Shown here piece by piece: positions 3,644 through 50,889 of a DNA stretch of 50,889 nucleotides (positions within the stretch are counted from its first letter, which is position 1; the number at the start of each line of letters is the position of its first letter). The stretch covers positions 34,286 through 85,174 of the forward strand of contig MHDC01000004.1 of the NCBI GenBank assembly GCA_001803415.1. Direction: 5' to 3'. Under the pieces are notes generated by a model. The model was not told where the DNA came from. It searched no databases and worked only from the letters and a program-made list of their open reading frames with translations. The translations under genes and the position numbers were made by a program. The DNA comes from Microgenomates group bacterium RBG_16_45_19. Its GTDB lineage: Bacteria > Patescibacteriota > Microgenomatia > UBA1400 > RBG-16-45-19.

Positions 3644-4540
3644 ATGGACCTCTCGATTATTATCGTTTCTTATAATACCAAAGCCCTCCTGACGGCCTGT
3701 TTAGAGACACTGCTTCTGTCGGCTAAAAGTGCCTCCGGTTTGCGCTGGGAGATCATCGTCATCGACAACGCCTCCGCCGACGGCTCACCGGCGATGGTCC
3801 AACGTCAATTTCCTGAAGTGATCCTGCTTCAGCAAGCGAATAATTTGGGCTTTGGCCGGGCTAATAACGTTGGGGCCGCTCAGGCTCAAGGCCATTATCT
3901 CCTCTTGATCAATTCGGATACCAAGGTACCCAAAAACTTTATTAATCAGTTTTGGCACCAAGCCCTTCAAACTAAAGCCCAGCTTTCCAGCTGCCGCCTG
4001 CTTTATCCCGATGGTCGGCTCCAGCCACAGGGTGGAGCTTTACCTAACCTTTTCAATCTCTTTTTTTGGCAGTTTTTTTTGGATGATTTACCTCTGATTC
4101 AGGTCTATTTCCCCGCTTATCAGCGTCGGTCCTTAAGCTATTTTCAAGCCGACCAAACTCCCGGTTGGGTGAGCGCCACGGCCTTGTTGATTCAGCGTCA
4201 ATTATTCGACCGCTTAAACGGCTTTAATCCGGCGATCTTTCTCTATGGTGAAGATGTCGATCTCTGCTATCGTGCTCGGCAACTGTCAGTCCCGGTTTAT
4301 TATTTTACCACGCCATCCTTGACCCACTTCGCTCACCAAAGCGGCTCCGCCGTTCAGGCAATTATTGGCGAGTACCGCTACCTTAAATATTTCTTTATCC
4401 AATACCGCTCACCCTGGCAGTGGCCTCTGGCTAAAGTCATTTTAAAGAGCGGCGCTCGCTTGCGCCAGGGTTTATTTGGTAAGATACTAAAGCAGTATGC
4501 CAAAGCCGACGCCTATCGCCAAGCTTATCGCCTGGTATGA
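3644..4540 (+). CDS. Glycosyltransferase family 2
   Basis: DLSIIIVSYNTKALLTACL, IIVIDNASADGS, GEDVDLCYR; ATG 3644 preferred over GTG 3641. Confidence 0.9.
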   Translation: MDLSIIIVSYNTKALLTACLETLLLSAKSASGLRWEIIVIDNASADGSPAMVQRQFPEVILLQQANNLGFGRANNVGAAQAQGHYLLLINSDTKVPKNFINQFWHQALQTKAQLSSCRLLYPDGRLQPQGGALPNLFNLFFWQFFLDDLPLIQVYFPAYQRRSLSYFQADQTPGWVSATALLIQRQLFDRLNGFNPAIFLYGEDVDLCYRARQLSVPVYYFTTPSLTHFAHQSGSAVQAIIGEYRYLKYFFIQYRSPWQWPLAKVILKSGARLRQGLFGKILKQYAKADAYRQAYRLV

Positions 4541-8507: not shown

Positions 8508-9189
8508 ACTGACTTTTGATTATGCCTAACCGGTAACCTCTCCCCTTAATCGTGTGCAGGAGCGGTGGACTGGATTTGAACGGTTTATCGATTTTGTGGC
8601 GTAAATAGCCAATATACACGTCAACCGTTTTTGATCCGGCCGGCAGCTTTTTGCCCCAGACTGCTTTTCGGACTGCTTCTTTAGTCACCACTTGATCCTG
8701 ATGTTCGGCTAAATATTTGATCAGCTTGTATTCGGTCGCGGTTAAGTTGATTTCTTGACCCTGTCGTTTGACTAACCGGGTTAAAGTATCGATGCTCAAA
8801 TCATCGCAGTAAAATTGGGTAACCACCTGTTGTTGTCGTCTAAAAACGGCTCTAATCCGGGCTAACAATTCTTTGACGGCAAACGGTTTAACCAGATAAT
8901 CATCGGCGCCGGCATCTAAGCCCATGACCCGATCGGTGGTCGTGTCCCGGGCGGTCAGCATAATGATTGGAGTGTCGTTTCCGTCCCGCCGCCACTGCTG
9001 GCATAAAGAAATCCCATCCAACCCTGGTAAAGTTAAATCTAACAGCATCAGGTCAAACAGCCTTTGGTTAGCCTGAGCCAAACCGCTTGGACCATCAAAA
9101 GCTAAAGTGACTTGATAACCTTCATCGACTAAAATAGTTTTTAACGCCTGTGCCAACCTAATTTCATCTTCAATTATCAGGATTTTCAT
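8494..9189 (-). CDS. OmpR-family response regulator
   Basis: MKILIIEDE, LMLLDLTLPGLDG, KPFAVKEL, winged-helix C-terminus IKGRGYRLG. Confidence 0.95.
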   Translation of the reverse strand: MKILIIEDEIRLAQALKTILVDEGYQVTLAFDGPSGLAQANQRLFDLMLLDLTLPGLDGISLCQQWRRDGNDTPIIMLTARDTTTDRVMGLDAGADDYLVKPFAVKELLARIRAVFRRQQQVVTQFYCDDLSIDTLTRLVKRQGQEINLTATEYKLIKYLAEHQDQVVTKEAVRKAVWGKKLPAGSKTVDVYIGYLRHKIDKPFKSSPPLLHTIKGRGYRLGIIKSQYGAH

Positions 9190-9201
9190 AATGATTTTCG
9201 A

Positions 9202-9239
9202 TTTTCACCCCGGGGGTGCAGTGATCTAGACACCTCGGG
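9202..9239 (+). repeat. Left copy of perfect 38-bp inverted repeat flanking the REP transposase
   Basis: TTTTCACCCCGGGGGTGCAGTGATCTAGACACCTCGGG, exact reverse complement of 9970-10007. Confidence 0.97.
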
Positions 9240-9242
9240 AAA

Positions 9243-9920
9243 TTATTGTTCAAAACATAAATGTTTAATGCTTTCTAAAGCTTGTTGGTAACTTGCCTGG
9301 TTTGAACAAAACTCGGCATAAGCTTCTCGGCTTGAAAATTGATCAAGTACAATTGCTGGTGAGACTATTGGCCAGGTCACTTGACCGGTTAAATAATCGC
9401 TTAATGAGGATGGTGGATACTGCTTTAGTTTATCAAAAGTATCAACCACAAAACTCGTCAAAGGATTTAAATGAATATAGCGCGATACATGCAGTAATTG
9501 TTCATTAGTTACAATCCTAACCGCTTTAAATCGGGGTAATAATAACGATCCCTTGCGCCCCTGTCTGATATTGTAATATCGGGTGAAACTGTTTTGAAAA
9601 TTACTTATATATGTTTGAATACCTTGATCGACCATCTGTTCAACTAACAAGTGAAAATGGTTTGGCATTAAACAGAAAGCAATAATTTGGACATGACATG
9701 GTAATTTCTCAATTGACTCAAGTATTGAACGCCTTGTATCGTTATTAAGAGTTAAATATTGGGAGAGACGCATGCCCGGATCTATAAATTTATAGTAGTA
9801 TAAAGTTAATAGGCCTCGATCAATATTCTTTTTATGAGAGAATATTGGAAAATGATCAATCGCTTGATTAAAAACATGGTAAACCTGCCCAGTGACCAAT
9901 GGTTCGGTTCTAACAGGCAT
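9243..9920 (-). CDS. REP-associated tyrosine (Y1/HUH) transposase
   Basis: VYHVFNQ, FCLMPNHFHLLVEQ (HUH), VSRYIHLNPL (candidate catalytic Tyr). Confidence 0.93.
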   Translation of the reverse strand: MPVRTEPLVTGQVYHVFNQAIDHFPIFSHKKNIDRGLLTLYYYKFIDPGMRLSQYLTLNNDTRRSILESIEKLPCHVQIIAFCLMPNHFHLLVEQMVDQGIQTYISNFQNSFTRYYNIRQGRKGSLLLPRFKAVRIVTNEQLLHVSRYIHLNPLTSFVVDTFDKLKQYPPSSLSDYLTGQVTWPIVSPAIVLDQFSSREAYAEFCSNQASYQQALESIKHLCFEQ

Positions 9921-9969
9921 ATAATTACCGATTATGGTCGGTTATTCATATTATGTCCAGTTTCGATAA

Positions 9970-10007
9970 CCCGAGGTGTCTAGATCACTGCACCCCCGGG
10001 GTGAAAA
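9970..10007 (-). repeat. Right copy of perfect 38-bp inverted repeat
   Basis: CCCGAGGTGTCTAGATCACTGCACCCCCGGGGTGAAAA, exact reverse complement of 9202-9239. Confidence 0.97.
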
Positions 10008-10015
10008 AGTAAAAT

Positions 10016-11212
10016 ATGAATATTTTGATGCTCACCCCTTACTTGCCCTACCCCTTGTTATCTGGCGGTCAAATTCGCACCTTTAATTTATTAAAGAACC
10101 TCAAGGATAAACATTCCATTACCCTTTTTTCGCTCATCAAATCGGCCGACCGACCTTACTTGGAGGCTTTAAAACCCTATTGTCATAAACTAAAGGTTTT
10201 TCGCCGCTCCGACAAACCGTTTACGCCTCAGAATATGCTTAAGACCGGTTTATCCACTTACCCGCTGGTGGTGATCCGCAATTTAGTCCCAGAAACCGCC
10301 CAAGCGGTCAAGCAGGAATTGAAGTCGCGGCCGTACGATTTGATTCACGCCGAAACCTTTTATATGATGCCCAATTTACCCCGGACCACTATCCCCATCA
10401 TTTTAGTCGAACAAACCATTGAGTATTTAGGTTATCAATCTTACGCTCAAAACTCTCGACGCTGGTATTTAAAACCGTTTTTTTCCCTGGATATTGCCAA
10501 AATTAAGCATTTGGAAAAGCATTATTGGCGGACTTGCAGTCGTTTAATTACCATGAGTCAAAGCGATCAAGAGTTTATTCAAACCGAGTGTCCCGATATT
10601 AAGCACATTGATGTCGTCGCCAATGGGGTAGATATTCCTTTTTTTACCGCCGTTCCCAAAAAATTACCGGCCGTCCCTACGATCCTCTTTGTCGGCACTT
10701 TTTCCTGGCTGCCCAACCGCCAAGCCACCATCTGGCTAGTAGAACACATCTGGCCACTGGTCAAACAGCGTTTACTTAAAGCTCGCCTTCATATTGTTGG
10801 TTTTAAACCGACGGCTAAAATTTTAGCCTACAATCAATTGCCCGATGTCACCGTCAACGGCAATGTTCAAGATATCCGTCAGGCTTATGCTACCGCCCAT
10901 GTCTTAGTCGCGCCGGTTAACTGGGGTAAAGGGACTCGCTATAAAATTTTGGAATCCATGGCGACTCAAACTCCGGTGGTGGCCACGCCGCTGGCGGTTG
11001 AAGGTATTGCCGGCTTGGTTCCAGGTGAACATGTATTGGTGGCTGACACTACCCAAGCTTTAGCCGCTCAAACCCTTAAAGTCTTAACTCAACCTCATTT
11101 GCAGCAGCGTCTAGCCAAGGCTAGTTATCGCCTGGTGACCCAACACTACGATTGGGCGGCCATCTCTCAGGATCTGGATCGGATTTATCATAAATTAGGT
11201 CAAAACTTATGA
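10016..11212 (+). CDS. Glycosyltransferase family 4
   Basis: MNILMLTPYLPYPLLSGGQIRTFNLLKNL; ILFVGTFSWLPNRQA; GKGTRYKILESMATQTPVVATPLAVEGI. Confidence 0.92.
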   Translation: MNILMLTPYLPYPLLSGGQIRTFNLLKNLKDKHSITLFSLIKSADRPYLEALKPYCHKLKVFRRSDKPFTPQNMLKTGLSTYPLVVIRNLVPETAQAVKQELKSRPYDLIHAETFYMMPNLPRTTIPIILVEQTIEYLGYQSYAQNSRRWYLKPFFSLDIAKIKHLEKHYWRTCSRLITMSQSDQEFIQTECPDIKHIDVVANGVDIPFFTAVPKKLPAVPTILFVGTFSWLPNRQATIWLVEHIWPLVKQRLLKARLHIVGFKPTAKILAYNQLPDVTVNGNVQDIRQAYATAHVLVAPVNWGKGTRYKILESMATQTPVVATPLAVEGIAGLVPGEHVLVADTTQALAAQTLKVLTQPHLQQRLAKASYRLVTQHYDWAAISQDLDRIYHKLGQNL

Positions 11213-46175: not shown

Positions 46176-47018
46176 ATGGCCGATTCGGTTGACTTAATCC
46201 CACTTGATCATCTTCAGCCCAATCCGCTCCAACCTCGTGGTTCTCTCACCCCCGACTCTCTCCAAGACCTGGTCGAATCCATCCGACAACACGGTATCCT
46301 GGAACCTTTAATTGTCGCTCAAACTCCGGCCGGTTTACAGATTATTGCCGGTGAGCGGCGTTGGCGAGCGGCTAAGATTGTCGGCTTAACCCAAGTCCCG
46401 GTGGTCATCAAGCAAACCTCTCCTCAAGGCATGCTGGAAATGGCTATCATCGAGAATGTCCAGCGCACCGATTTAAATCCTCTCGAGCGGGCTAAAGCCT
46501 TTGATCGTCTCCATCTTGAGTTTAATCTCAGCACCAACGACATTGCCCAACGGATTTCCAAATCCCCCTCATATGTCTCCAATACTTTACGGTTACTTAA
46601 ACTCCCTGATGCCTTAAAAGATGGTTTGCTTTCCGGGGTTATCACCGAAGGTCATGCTCGAGCCCTCTCGGCGATTGAGGACCCTCGGGCGATGATCGAA
46701 GCCTACAAAATCGTCATGCGCGAGTCGGCCTCGGTCCGTCGGGCTGAAGAGTTAGCTCGCCGCTTTAAACACGACACCGGCCAAAAGCCAAAAGCTAAAC
46801 ATTTAGCCAGTCAAACTTTGCTCCTGTCTCAAGAATTAGATCGCATGCAAGATGACATTCAAGCCTCTTTGGGTCAGATCTCTCAGGTTAAATTGAAGCA
46901 GTCACAGCGTCAAACCAAACTTTTTATCGTTCTCAAGGGGTCTCCCAAAATCACCGATGATATTTTAAAAAGGATACATCAGGTCTTAATCACTCTCAAA
47001 CCTCAGAATCCGGCGTAA
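46176..47018 (+). CDS. parB: ParB/Spo0J-like partition protein
   Basis: IPLDHLQPNPLQPR, IIAGERRWRAAKIVGL, IIENVQRTDLNPLERAKAF, HTH ISKSPSYVSNTLRLLKL. Confidence 0.95.
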   Translation: MADSVDLIPLDHLQPNPLQPRGSLTPDSLQDLVESIRQHGILEPLIVAQTPAGLQIIAGERRWRAAKIVGLTQVPVVIKQTSPQGMLEMAIIENVQRTDLNPLERAKAFDRLHLEFNLSTNDIAQRISKSPSYVSNTLRLLKLPDALKDGLLSGVITEGHARALSAIEDPRAMIEAYKIVMRESASVRRAEELARRFKHDTGQKPKAKHLASQTLLLSQELDRMQDDIQASLGQISQVKLKQSQRQTKLFIVLKGSPKITDDILKRIHQVLITLKPQNPA

Positions 47019-47587
47019 GTAGTTTTTTCCAATTGTCCAATCCGATTCAGCGGCCAATATCTAAAGAAAACGTGACCGACGATATTACCCATTTCGACTG
47101 GTCCCCAAGTGCGTGAATCGCTGGAATGCGGCCGATTATCACCCAGGACAAAATATTGTCCGGTGGGGATGGTCACCGGTCCATTGGCCATGTAAGCTCC
47201 CGGGCGTGTTTCGATGGCTGCCCCTATATAAGTTTCATCCAACGGTTGGTTATTAACGACGACGTGATTGTTGGTAATCGTGACCGTATCCCCGGGTAAA
47301 CCAATCACTCTTTTGATAAAATCACAACCGGCGCCCTCGGGACATTGAGCTTGTGGGGGTGACCGAAAGACCACTACATCCCCGCGTTTCGGCTGGTTAA
47401 ATTTATAGGAAATTTTATCGGTTAAGAGATATTCACCGTGGTGAAAATTAGGAATCATCGAGTCCCCGTTTACCTGGTGCGGCTGCATTAAAAACAGGTA
47501 AACAATTAAAAAGATCGATAAGGCAATTACCACCGTTTCAATAATGTCTAAGAAGAAACCGCCGATGGTTCTAAACACTGTTGACAT
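47003..47587 (-). CDS. lepB: Signal peptidase I
   Basis: VNGDSMIPNFHHGEYLLTDKISY, RGDVVVFRSP, FIKRVIGLPGDTV, VLGDNRPHSSDSRTWG. Confidence 0.96.
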   Translation of the reverse strand: MSTVFRTIGGFFLDIIETVVIALSIFLIVYLFLMQPHQVNGDSMIPNFHHGEYLLTDKISYKFNQPKRGDVVVFRSPPQAQCPEGAGCDFIKRVIGLPGDTVTITNNHVVVNNQPLDETYIGAAIETRPGAYMANGPVTIPTGQYFVLGDNRPHSSDSRTWGPVEMGNIVGHVFFRYWPLNRIGQLEKTTYAGF

Positions 47588-47672
47588 AGATAAATTGCCC
47601 AAAAACTGCCCGACTGACCGGGCGACCCCATTATTGCTTTATCCGGATTCGCTGGCAAGACCTAGTTTCTCC

Positions 47673-47706: not shown

Positions 47707-47779
47707 GACCGCTTAGCTCAGCCGGCAGAGCGCTTCGTTCACATCGAAGAGGTCGCAGGTTCAAATCCTGCAGCGGTCA
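47707..47779 (+). tRNA. tRNA-Val (anticodon CAC)
   Basis: Acceptor GACCGCT/AGCGGTC, anticodon arm CTTCG-TTCACAT-CGAAG, GGTTCAAATCC T arm; no encoded CCA. Confidence 0.95.
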
Positions 47780-47794
47780 CTTAAAAAGAATTTT

Positions 47795-47880
47795 GCCGCG
47801 GTGGCGGAACCGGCAGACGCGTACGCTTCAGGAGCGTATGCCCACTTACGGGCGTGGAGGTTCAAATCCTCTCCGCGGCA
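47795..47880 (+). tRNA. tRNA-Leu (anticodon CAG)
   Basis: Acceptor GCCGCGG/CCGCGGC, anticodon arm TACGC-TTCAGGA-GCGTA, long variable arm. Confidence 0.95.
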
Positions 47881-47903
47881 CGTTAAAATAGTTTGGCTGT
47901 TAA

Positions 47904-47990
47904 GCCGAGGTGGTGAAACTGGCAGACACGCAGCCTTGAGGAGGCTGTGCCCTTTAACAAGGCGTGGAGGTTCAAGTCCTCTCCTCGGCA
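47904..47990 (+). tRNA. tRNA-Leu (anticodon GAG)
   Basis: Acceptor GCCGAGG/CCTCGGC, anticodon arm CAGCC-TTGAGGA-GGCTG, long variable arm. Confidence 0.95.
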
Positions 47991-48000
47991 CTCAATTATA

Positions 48001-48073
48001 GGACTCATAGCTCAGCTGGCAGAGCGCTTCTTTTACACAGAAGAGGTCAGGGGTTCAAATCCTCTTGAGTCCA
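48001..48073 (+). tRNA. tRNA-Val (anticodon TAC)
   Basis: Acceptor GGACTCA/TGAGTCC, anticodon arm CTTCT-TTTACAC-AGAAG; no encoded CCA. Confidence 0.95.
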
Positions 48074-48079
48074 CCCTTA

Positions 48080-48155
48080 GCCAAGCTAGCCAACCTTTCG
48101 ACTTTGCTCAAAGTCATACAGGTGGTAAGTTAGGAGATAATGCCAAGCTAGCCAA
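48080..48155 (+). repeat. Pair of 14-bp direct repeats GCCAAGCTAGCCAA (48080-48093 and 48142-48155)
   Basis: Exact 14-bp match, 62-bp offset, between tRNA-Val and the integrase gene. Confidence 0.85.
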
Positions 48156-48235
48156 GGTGGTCACTTTTCTAGCCTGGAGCCAAAGTGATTATCTAATAGA
48201 TTAATCGAGAAAATCTCCATATCTTGTAACTAGAT

Positions 48236-49231
48236 ATGCTAGTTACACAGATAGATGGGGACAAGTTCCAGCAATTCCTTTACACAGAAAAAGGATTGAG
48301 CCGGAACCCAACTTCCCATAATTCCAATACGGCAAGGTTTCGACTGATCCAAAAGTTCTTGGTGAATTTGGAGTGGGAAAAAGAGAATTTCAGAGATTTA
48401 ATAAGTGGTATGGAGGAACGAGGAAATAAACCCTCAACAATCAATAAAATAATCACCATGGGGAAATATATCGATGAATACCTCGGTTCAGACACAACCA
48501 AGGGGTTCAAATATCGAAGGGAACGAGTAGCTAAAATTGATAATCTATTGACTCCTCAAGAAATCCGTCAACTAGCTGAAATACAAATTGCATACTCAAA
48601 GTTTAGGGGTTACATTAACGATCGCCAGAAGACCTTAATAATGCTTCTCGGTACCACCGGCTGTCGTATCTCCGAGGCCTTAAATCTTACCTGGGATGAA
48701 GTTTACCTGAATCCAAAACCTCATGTAGTTTTCTTACTTACCAAAAATGGTGAAGATAGGAAGGTGCCAATAGGGGATGAGGTTTACCGCCTAGTACAAA
48801 CCCTCCCACACATGGGTAAAAACGTCTTTTTTTCTTGTAGACAGGGCATTTATAACCTGCAACAAAACAACCTTGACCTAAAAAGAAGGGCTAAGTTATG
48901 CCATATTAATAAAAGGATTTATAATCATCTTTTCCGCCACTCCTTCATTTCAACCATGCTGGAGATCGGAACCAGTGAATCAGATGTAATGAAGCTAGTT
49001 GGACACCATGATTATAAAAGCCTGCTTAGGTATAAGAACAGCCAGCTAGATTATTATTCTGGAGTAATTAGATTCCATCCCTTGTTAAATTCAGAAATCA
49101 CCTGGAAAGAACGCACTCATCAATTGTCTGAATTGATCCATAAGATTTACGATACAGATAAATTCCCATTAAGTATTGACTGTAACGAAAGTTTAGTATC
49201 AATCACTATCCGTAATCTTGATTCCCTTTAA
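48236..49231 (+). CDS. Tyrosine recombinase/integrase
   Basis: GTTGCRISEALNLTWDEV, HLFRHSFISTMLEIG, VMKLVGHHDYKSLLRY: R, HxxR, H and Tyr in expected order. Confidence 0.93.
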   Translation: MLVTQIDGDKFQQFLYTEKGLSRNPTSHNSNTARFRLIQKFLVNLEWEKENFRDLISGMEERGNKPSTINKIITMGKYIDEYLGSDTTKGFKYRRERVAKIDNLLTPQEIRQLAEIQIAYSKFRGYINDRQKTLIMLLGTTGCRISEALNLTWDEVYLNPKPHVVFLLTKNGEDRKVPIGDEVYRLVQTLPHMGKNVFFSCRQGIYNLQQNNLDLKRRAKLCHINKRIYNHLFRHSFISTMLEIGTSESDVMKLVGHHDYKSLLRYKNSQLDYYSGVIRFHPLLNSEITWKERTHQLSELIHKIYDTDKFPLSIDCNESLVSITIRNLDSL

Positions 49232-49561
49232 AATATCTGATTATTTTCACCCCAGTATTTTTTAAGAAATGACACCTCACCTGGATCTGCAAAAAAGGTT
49301 AAAGCCTTACAAAACCCGGAATAACCCTGGCGATCGAAGTCGCTTTCCACCCAAATAGATTTTCCCCAAATATCCACGACTTTATGTGGGAGGTACCTGA
49401 TCCTGCATTTATAATGTGCTTCTTCTCTTAGATTGGTCTGGACCTTTTGTATTATTCAGGTATTTTATTTGTTTAATGGACTTTCCCACAACCCGTATAG
49501 ATTTATGATCGTCAATTTGTACCGACACAAAGATTTTGATCCCTAGTGGTCTCTTACTCAT
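49228..49561 (-). pseudogene. Split-frame (frameshifted) gene of about 111 aa, unknown function
   Basis: ATG at 49561 opens MSKRPLGIKIFVSVQIDDHKSIRVVGKSIKQIKYLNNTK in one frame (stop at 49409); a neighbouring frame continues VQTNLREEAHYKCRIRYLPHKVVDIWGKSIWVESDFDRQGYSGFCKALTFFADPGEVSFLKKYWGENNQIF* with no ATG of its own. Confidence 0.65.
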
Positions 49562-49809
49562 GCTTTTTCTCCATCACTGGATATTTTGATACAAGAATCA
49601 AATCCTCTATCTTTCCTCCAACTAATTAGAGCGTCGTGAATACTCACAAAATCTCTATTTAACTCTCGCTTCCGCAGTTGTCTTTCAGAGTTAGGTTTAT
49701 AGCCGCCGTTAAGATCGGCATCAATCAACTTACCAAACTCCTCATCATTTCGAGCTAGATTGGTTAATAGAGAAGATCGTCGGGACATACCTTTCTTCCA
49801 TCTGCCCAT
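49558..49809 (-). CDS. Small basic protein, unknown function
   Basis: 83 aa; start overlaps the helicase gene, ATGA junction with the downstream split-frame gene. Confidence 0.6.
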   Translation of the reverse strand: MGRWKKGMSRRSSLLTNLARNDEEFGKLIDADLNGGYKPNSERQLRKRELNRDFVSIHDALISWRKDRGFDSCIKISSDGEKA

Positions 49810-50525
49810 TGGTTTTGGACAGCAATCACTTTATTATCTGGATCACCTTCTAGTTTGAGAGTGCCGGTGGTTTGGAATTGTCGGTTCTTGGCTACAATAA
49901 CCAAACCGTTATTGGCAAATAACTGTTCGCTATTTACCGCAATCTCCTGTGCATTTTTCTTAAACCTATGAACAAAAATCACACAGTCTGGATCTTGAAA
50001 TAGAGCACTACTATCTTTGAGGTCGTTAAGGGTGGGAATGGCGGAATCGCTGATAAGTTTCCTAGTATGGGCCACGATCACAACCGGTGTTTCAATATCC
50101 CTCGCTAGAGTTTGAAAGTTTCTGATCAAGACTCCAATCTTTGCCTGCATCTGCTCCCCTAAATCAGGAACAAGATAATGGATGTGGTCGATGAAGATTA
50201 TATCTGCCAGGTGTAGGTTGCTTCTGATGTGAGCTTCTATTTCCAGGTAACTGATACCAACATCAGGGGCGACAATCTTTAAGTTCTCAATCTCCTCGTC
50301 GCCATAAATCGAATGGATGGGAGCGGTAATAGCATGGCCTGATTCCAGTGAGTAAATCAGTACTTTTTTGTTTTGTTCAACCGCTATGTTGGCCGCAATG
50401 TTGCCTAAGAAGGTGGTTTTCCCGGAACTGGTTACACCAGCCAGAATGGTGATGGTACCTGGTAAAAACCCCTTAATCATCCTGTCAAGGTAAAAGAAAC
50501 CAGTCTTGGGAGCTGTCTCTGCCAA
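49764..50525 (-). CDS. RecA-fold DnaB/Twinkle-like helicase core domain protein
   Basis: GFLPGTITILAGVTSSGKTTFLGNIAANIA (Walker A), VLIYSLESG, ADIIFIDHIHYLV (Walker B), VIVAHTRKL; apparent TTG start. Confidence 0.8.
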   Translation of the reverse strand: MAETAPKTGFFYLDRMIKGFLPGTITILAGVTSSGKTTFLGNIAANIAVEQNKKVLIYSLESGHAITAPIHSIYGDEEIENLKIVAPDVGISYLEIEAHIRSNLHLADIIFIDHIHYLVPDLGEQMQAKIGVLIRNFQTLARDIETPVVIVAHTRKLISDSAIPTLNDLKDSSALFQDPDCVIFVHRFKKNAQEIAVNSEQLFANNGLVIVAKNRQFQTTGTLKLEGDPDNKVIAVQNQWADGRKVCPDDLLY

Positions 50526-50575
50526 TTTTAAGTTGTCCTGGTATTTTTAAGATGATTCCAAGTAAGAAAACATCT

Positions 50576-50889
50576 TCATACAATCCCCCTTTTCATGGCT
50601 TCTTGGGCGTATGCTTGATCTCCCCATTCACCCTTGTTGGCCATAGCTTTGAGTTCGGCGTCGGGTTTCAAGCTGGCTAAATAGGCGTAATCCTCCACTA
50701 CTAACGCCTGGTCTTTAAGAATCTTGTGGAATAAACCGGGGGGATTAGTAATCTTGGCACCTCTGGCTGTATACTGGCCTACTACTTCACACCATTTCTG
50801 ATAAGTTGAAGTCCATAATTTATTGGAACAAGCATTTGGTTTTTGTATTGGTGGTTTTTCTATAGAAGATATGCTTGTTTCTTTAATTG
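50576..50889 (-). CDS. Partial CDS, C-terminus of a possible replication-initiator-like protein
   Basis: Frame open from window end to TGA at 50576-50578: ...STYQKWCEVVGQYTARGAKITNPPGLFHKILKDQALVVEDYAYLASLKPDAELKAMANKGEWGDQAYAQEAMKRGIV*. Confidence 0.5.
   Translation of the reverse strand, partial: IKETSISSIEKPPIQKPNACSNKLWTSTYQKWCEVVGQYTARGAKITNPPGLFHKILKDQALVVEDYAYLASLKPDAELKAMANKGEWGDQAYAQEAMKRGIV

Follow-up and report, generated by a model that had tools for sequence, protein, structure and literature searches.

Insertion into tRNA genes typically takes place at the 3′ part of the gene, and recombination in the 5′ part is "considerably less frequent" (PMC6563490). In bacterial tRNA genes three regions are used, the anticodon arm, the T arm and the 3′ end (PMC8371274). 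In classic 3′-end islands of the Islander type (PMC4383910) a tyrosine recombinase lies beside the tRNA gene, which is restored by the element. The use of the 5′-distal part of the tRNA as a target, with reversed orientation, is credited to Zhao and Williams (2002) in the account given in PMC6563490, and the archaeal element CalSub-E1, located at a tRNA-Ser gene, also has a 5′-part target (PMC6563490).

The window, that is the whole stretch of 50,889 nucleotides analysed here, comprises bases 34286-85174 of contig C4 of a 1.37 Mb genome assembly (45 contigs, 86.7% complete). The region at its right end, 2.8 kb long, is very probably the left end of a small integrative element of the tyrosine recombinase type, inserted in the 5′ part of a tRNA-Phe gene with the target directly downstream of tRNA-Val(TAC). 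This reading is based on 5′ fragments of tRNA-Phe, the failure to find an intact tRNA-Phe gene, a break in base composition, a recombinase that is intact, and two relatives in which this architecture recurs with a complete distal tRNA-Phe. The locus shares with the reversed-target elements (PMC6563490) the tyrosine recombinase, the tRNA target and a gene fragment on the 5′ side; an intact tRNA at the distal end is seen in the relatives (genomes G172 and G168). It differs from them in its target, tRNA-Phe(GAA), in belonging to a bacterial class with small genomes and in an integrase family without close relative in IMG/VR. Like the classic islands (PMC4383910) it has a tyrosine recombinase beside a tRNA gene that would be restored by the element; unlike in these, the 5′ part is used instead of the 3′ part, and the ends at which fragment and restored gene lie would be exchanged. 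Elements with a 5′-part tRNA target are a known but rare kind and have apparently not been described in this class; literature searches revealed no published description of integrated elements at this site, and integrated elements of small-genome bacteria of this kind are little described.

Results

An intact tyrosine recombinase is located downstream of a tRNA cluster

The features at the left end are:

47707..48075, + strand: tRNA cluster Val(CAC)-Leu(CAG)-Leu(GAG)-Val(TAC) (ARAGORN); intact host DNA, left flank of the probable element
48080..48093, + strand: first tRNA-Phe(GAA) 5′ remnant, 14 nt, GCCAAGCTAGCCAA; direct repeat D1, spacing 62
48142..48163, + strand: second, longer tRNA-Phe(GAA) 5′ remnant, 22 nt, GCCAAGCTAGCCAAGGTGGTCA; acceptor 5′ strand and D-arm, presumed left attachment junction
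48236..49231, + strand: tyrosine recombinase (integrase), 331 aa; PF00589 E=2.6e-21, phrog_1 E=7.4e-30

The last gene of the cluster, tRNA-Val(TAC), is intact (48001-48075, ARAGORN), and the integrase gene starts approximately 160 bp behind it. Its open reading frame is intact and the catalytic residues R144, K170, H231xxR234, H257 and Y266 are conserved in the family alignment. Thus, an intact tyrosine recombinase adjoins the tRNA target, as expected for a tRNA-targeting integrative element. The GC content drops to 40.1% for positions 48164-50889, compared to 49.2% before position 47600, and none of the 449 stretches of the same size (2.7 kb) elsewhere in the window is below 42.7%. The end of the window is also the end of the contig, which stops 2.7 kb into the element.

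The tRNA-Phe(GAA) gene is very probably interrupted

The occupied site can be compared with an empty one in G001, the one further genome of this family in the comparison, though not of the same species. There, the order is Val(CAC)-Leu-Leu-Val(TAC), followed after 35 bp by Phe(GAA) without insert; in G029, a genome of another family, the order is Val(TAC)-Phe(GAA)-Gly. A blastn comparison of the Val-Phe stretch of G001 with the genome of the window matched tRNA-Val and, behind it, a short stretch of tRNA-Phe (48137-48163). The 22-nt remnant is identical to the G001 tRNA-Phe in 21 of 22 positions, a score reached by none of 1000 shuffled sequences; it ends in the D-arm, and the DNA past 48163 is unrelated and foreign. 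The two copies in the window are the only exact matches to the 14-mer GCCAAGCTAGCCAA in the assembly, and the single match with one mismatch is located outside any tRNA. An intact tRNA-Phe was not found in the assembly, neither with blastn nor with a pattern of anticodon and T-arm, an absence that by itself weighs little at 86.7% completeness. The patchy distribution of the helicase and integrase genes together with the empty site in G001 fits a mobile element.

A similarity of 20 nucleotides between the anticodon arm of tRNA-Val and the start of the integrase gene (D2) was judged to be due to chance because it is located inside the integrase gene.

In two of three elements, tRNA-Val and the integrase gene are separated by two tRNA-Phe remnants in a row (window 48080-48163; G168, L147 ~4143-4240). 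These tandem 5′ remnants may be scars of successive insertions.

Related integrases occupy the same site in two other families

Among 374 genomes of the class, the best relatives of the integrase were found in G172 (41% identity in the search, 39% by full-length alignment) and G168 (38 and 37%), which represent two other families of the class; the next relative is encoded in G192 (36%). The remaining 87 genomes of the order yielded only remote Xer-like matches, and no close relative was identified in IMG/VR or in GTDB genome contigs, searches from which the records nearest to the window's own genome were possibly omitted. In one tree the three integrases at the tRNA-Phe site form a group with moderate support (89/81) and G192 as sister (93/92); a second, smaller tree did not resolve the grouping. 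Direct repeats flanking more distant integrase relatives were not found in the stretches examined.

In G172 and G168 the integrase gene also directly follows tRNA-Val(TAC), and a complete tRNA-Phe(GAA) is located further on, on the same strand, at a distance of 4.2 kb in G172 and 10.0 kb in G168. In G168, a decayed, near full-length tRNA-Phe is present at the left junction and agrees almost completely with the intact distal copy over its first 42 nucleotides, so that both borders carry the 5′ half of tRNA-Phe as a direct repeat. The left fragment in G172 consists of 9 nucleotides only and is not significant (56 of 1000 shuffles).

The original prediction had described a tyrosine recombinase just past tRNA-Val(TAC) in AT-rich DNA, which is borne out, and had taken the 3′ end of tRNA-Val as the target, with a direct repeat of this end at the distal border. 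With such a classic insertion the tRNA-Phe pieces would be incidental baggage on the element. The short distance between the intact tRNA-Val and the integrase gene would fit this, as would the related element in G192 (approximately 5.3 kb), which follows the classic 3′-end pattern of the PMC4383910 type: its integrase gene is flanked by two copies of tRNA-Lys(TTT), the 3′ part of which is repeated over 60 bp. However, a second tRNA-Val 3′ end with up to two mismatches is not present in the assembly, where the distal border itself is unassembled. Likewise, a tRNA-Val repeat was found close to the distal border neither in G172 nor in G168, and the repeat in G168 is tRNA-Phe. In addition, attP would have to carry DNA of the Val-Phe junction. 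The broken gene is tRNA-Phe(GAA), and we consider an insertion at the 3′ end of tRNA-Val hardly probable. Since the first tRNA-Phe remnant starts only 5 bp past tRNA-Val and the left limit of the core can be fixed only with attR at hand, a core crossover that spans the Val 3′ end, the spacer and the Phe 5′ end as one attachment site might be considered. It is very improbable, as the end-to-end identity in G168 covers tRNA-Phe but stops short of tRNA-Val.

Could the region be a decayed element next to a tRNA-Phe that was destroyed or moved by rearrangement rather than by site-specific insertion? The two tandem 5′ remnants would be compatible with decay, and lepB has been rearranged beside the tRNA cluster relative to G001. 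In the window, this signal peptidase I gene separates parB from the tRNA cluster (47003-47602, − strand); in G001 it is found downstream of tRNA-Phe on the + strand (L101 6758-7333), a local rearrangement around the same cluster. The intact integrase with its catalytic residues and the same layout in G172 and G168 argue against a dead remnant, which we regard as extremely improbable.

The opposing operon encodes a stand-alone replicative helicase

Beyond the integrase gene, the following features are encoded on the opposite strand:

49228..49377, − strand: small ORF, 49 aa, doubtful; ORF only, no match
49409..49561, − strand: small ORF, 50 aa, with a 4-base overlap with the 83-aa ORF; no family match
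49558..49809, − strand: small ORF, 83 aa; no family match
49764..50525, − strand: stand-alone replicative helicase with DnaB-C/RecA fold, 253 aa; PF03796 (DnaB_C) E=4.4e-31, phrog_19 E=4.8e-30
50576..50889, − strand: C-terminal part (103 aa) of a protein whose reading frame is cut by the end of the contig; leading gene of the helicase operon, no family

The helicase consists of the C-terminal DnaB/RecA-fold domain alone, has neither an N-terminal nor a primase domain and is distinct from the host DnaB encoded on contig C28. With the DnaB-like replicative helicases of phages (PHROG 19 and 243; Mycoplasma and Streptococcus phages) it shares the RecA-fold C-terminal domain, with 26-29% identity over approximately 90% of the protein. 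Unlike these it is only about 253 aa long, is devoid of the N-terminal domain and has no close relative in the collections searched: the remaining 87 genomes of the order gave no match below E=1e-9, and a close relative was found neither in IMG/VR nor in GTDB genome contigs (records nearest to the window's own genome possibly omitted). A replicative helicase, as expected for an autonomously replicating element, is present, and it supports a putative replication module in the element. The helicase operon would then replicate the excised form.

For the cut protein, no credible match was obtained in Pfam, PHROGs, NCBIfam, PDB or with phage tblastn and no close relative in IMG/VR, and the structure model is of low confidence (pLDDT 48). 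Its resemblance to replication initiators, which had been proposed from a NPPGLFHKILKD stretch, is therefore unsupported: all sequence searches were negative and the model is poor. The one argument for calling it an initiator is the gene order. In G168 a phage-type replication initiator (phrog_1408 E=1.5e-19) is followed by a primase-helicase, and in the window the cut protein is followed by the helicase. Of the element with its own replication module that the original prediction had suggested, the integrated element and the helicase thus stand, and the initiator lacks support. The opposing operon with a stand-alone RecA-fold helicase and small proteins without family match (83 and 50 aa) had been described correctly, and the suggested comparison with phage and plasmid families yielded phrog_19 for the helicase and nothing for the cut protein.

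The restored tRNA-Phe is predicted beyond the contig end

We infer a crossover within the 5′ part of tRNA-Phe, the excision to a circular form and the distal junction in this genome. The recombinase would join an attP on the circular element, carrying a copy of the tRNA-Phe(GAA) 5′ part, to the chromosomal tRNA-Phe gene. Recombination inside the 5′ part would leave a dead tRNA-Phe 5′ fragment beside tRNA-Val (attL); at attR, a complete tRNA-Phe would be rebuilt from the 5′ copy of the element and the 3′ part of the host gene. The rebuilt tRNA-Phe would be cut off from the tRNA cluster and would therefore require a promoter, which would be supplied by the element. In G168 and G172 an extended −10 box, TGTTATAAT, is located approximately 35 bp upstream of the presumably rebuilt tRNA-Phe. 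This sequence is missed by a standard promoter scan (spacing of 16-18 nt), and the Val-Phe spacer of G001 also contains TATAAT. Judged from its sequence, TGTTATAAT is thus only suggestive of an element-borne promoter of tRNA-Phe.

In the genome of the window, the restored tRNA-Phe is predicted to be located beyond the contig end. The last 501 bases do not overlap with any contig end, and a survey of 3-kb stretches at the contig ends (89 loci) revealed neither a tRNA-Phe nor an overlap nor a convincing element gene. Contig C40 (L239 1-154) begins at base 2 with tRNA-Gly(TCC), followed by tRNA-Arg(TCT). In G172, tRNA-Gly(TCC) is located 3.3 kb beyond tRNA-Phe. Because tRNA-Gly(TCC) follows tRNA-Phe in G029, C40 may represent the right flank of the element; gene synteny confirming this was not found.

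Elements at this site might form a class-wide family

The tRNA-Val(TAC)/tRNA-Phe(GAA) junction would be a defined hotspot, and the rare 5′-half target together with the recognisable integrase family would make the class searchable, at this junction, for replicons in integrated or circular form and for defence islands. The reversed geometry would place a restored essential tRNA under a promoter of the element, an addiction-like dependence that can be tested. A broader reading, which we hold with slightly more doubt than confidence, is that a class-wide family of small elements might be specialised on the 5′ half of tRNA-Phe(GAA) in CPR-like bacteria. The tRNA would be split from its cluster and driven by an element promoter, the host would come to depend on the element for expression of this tRNA, and the site would be a hotspot of cargo for replication and defence. 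The label CPR-like is based here on the small genomes of the class and on the view expressed in the original prediction.

The cargo differs between the related elements. The G168 element encodes, besides its replication genes, an excisionase-like HTH protein and a second tyrosine recombinase. The G172 element (L146 6121-10361, C20; 4.2 kb) encodes a Mrr-type restriction enzyme, an HNH nuclease and a DUF4145 protein similar to PD-T7-4.

Additional observations

The G172 element resembles a compact defence island at the tRNA-Val/tRNA-Phe junction. The G192 element at tRNA-Lys (C12:780634-785926; L148 16650-18442 with L149) carries an AAA_21 ATPase and DUF4276 pair that resembles the candidate defence system HEC-01. 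In the window, the only other dip in GC content (approximately 38-40% at 9000-10500) coincides with an ORF of 225 aa for a Y1_Tnp transposase (IS200-like/REP-associated; 9243-9920, − strand).
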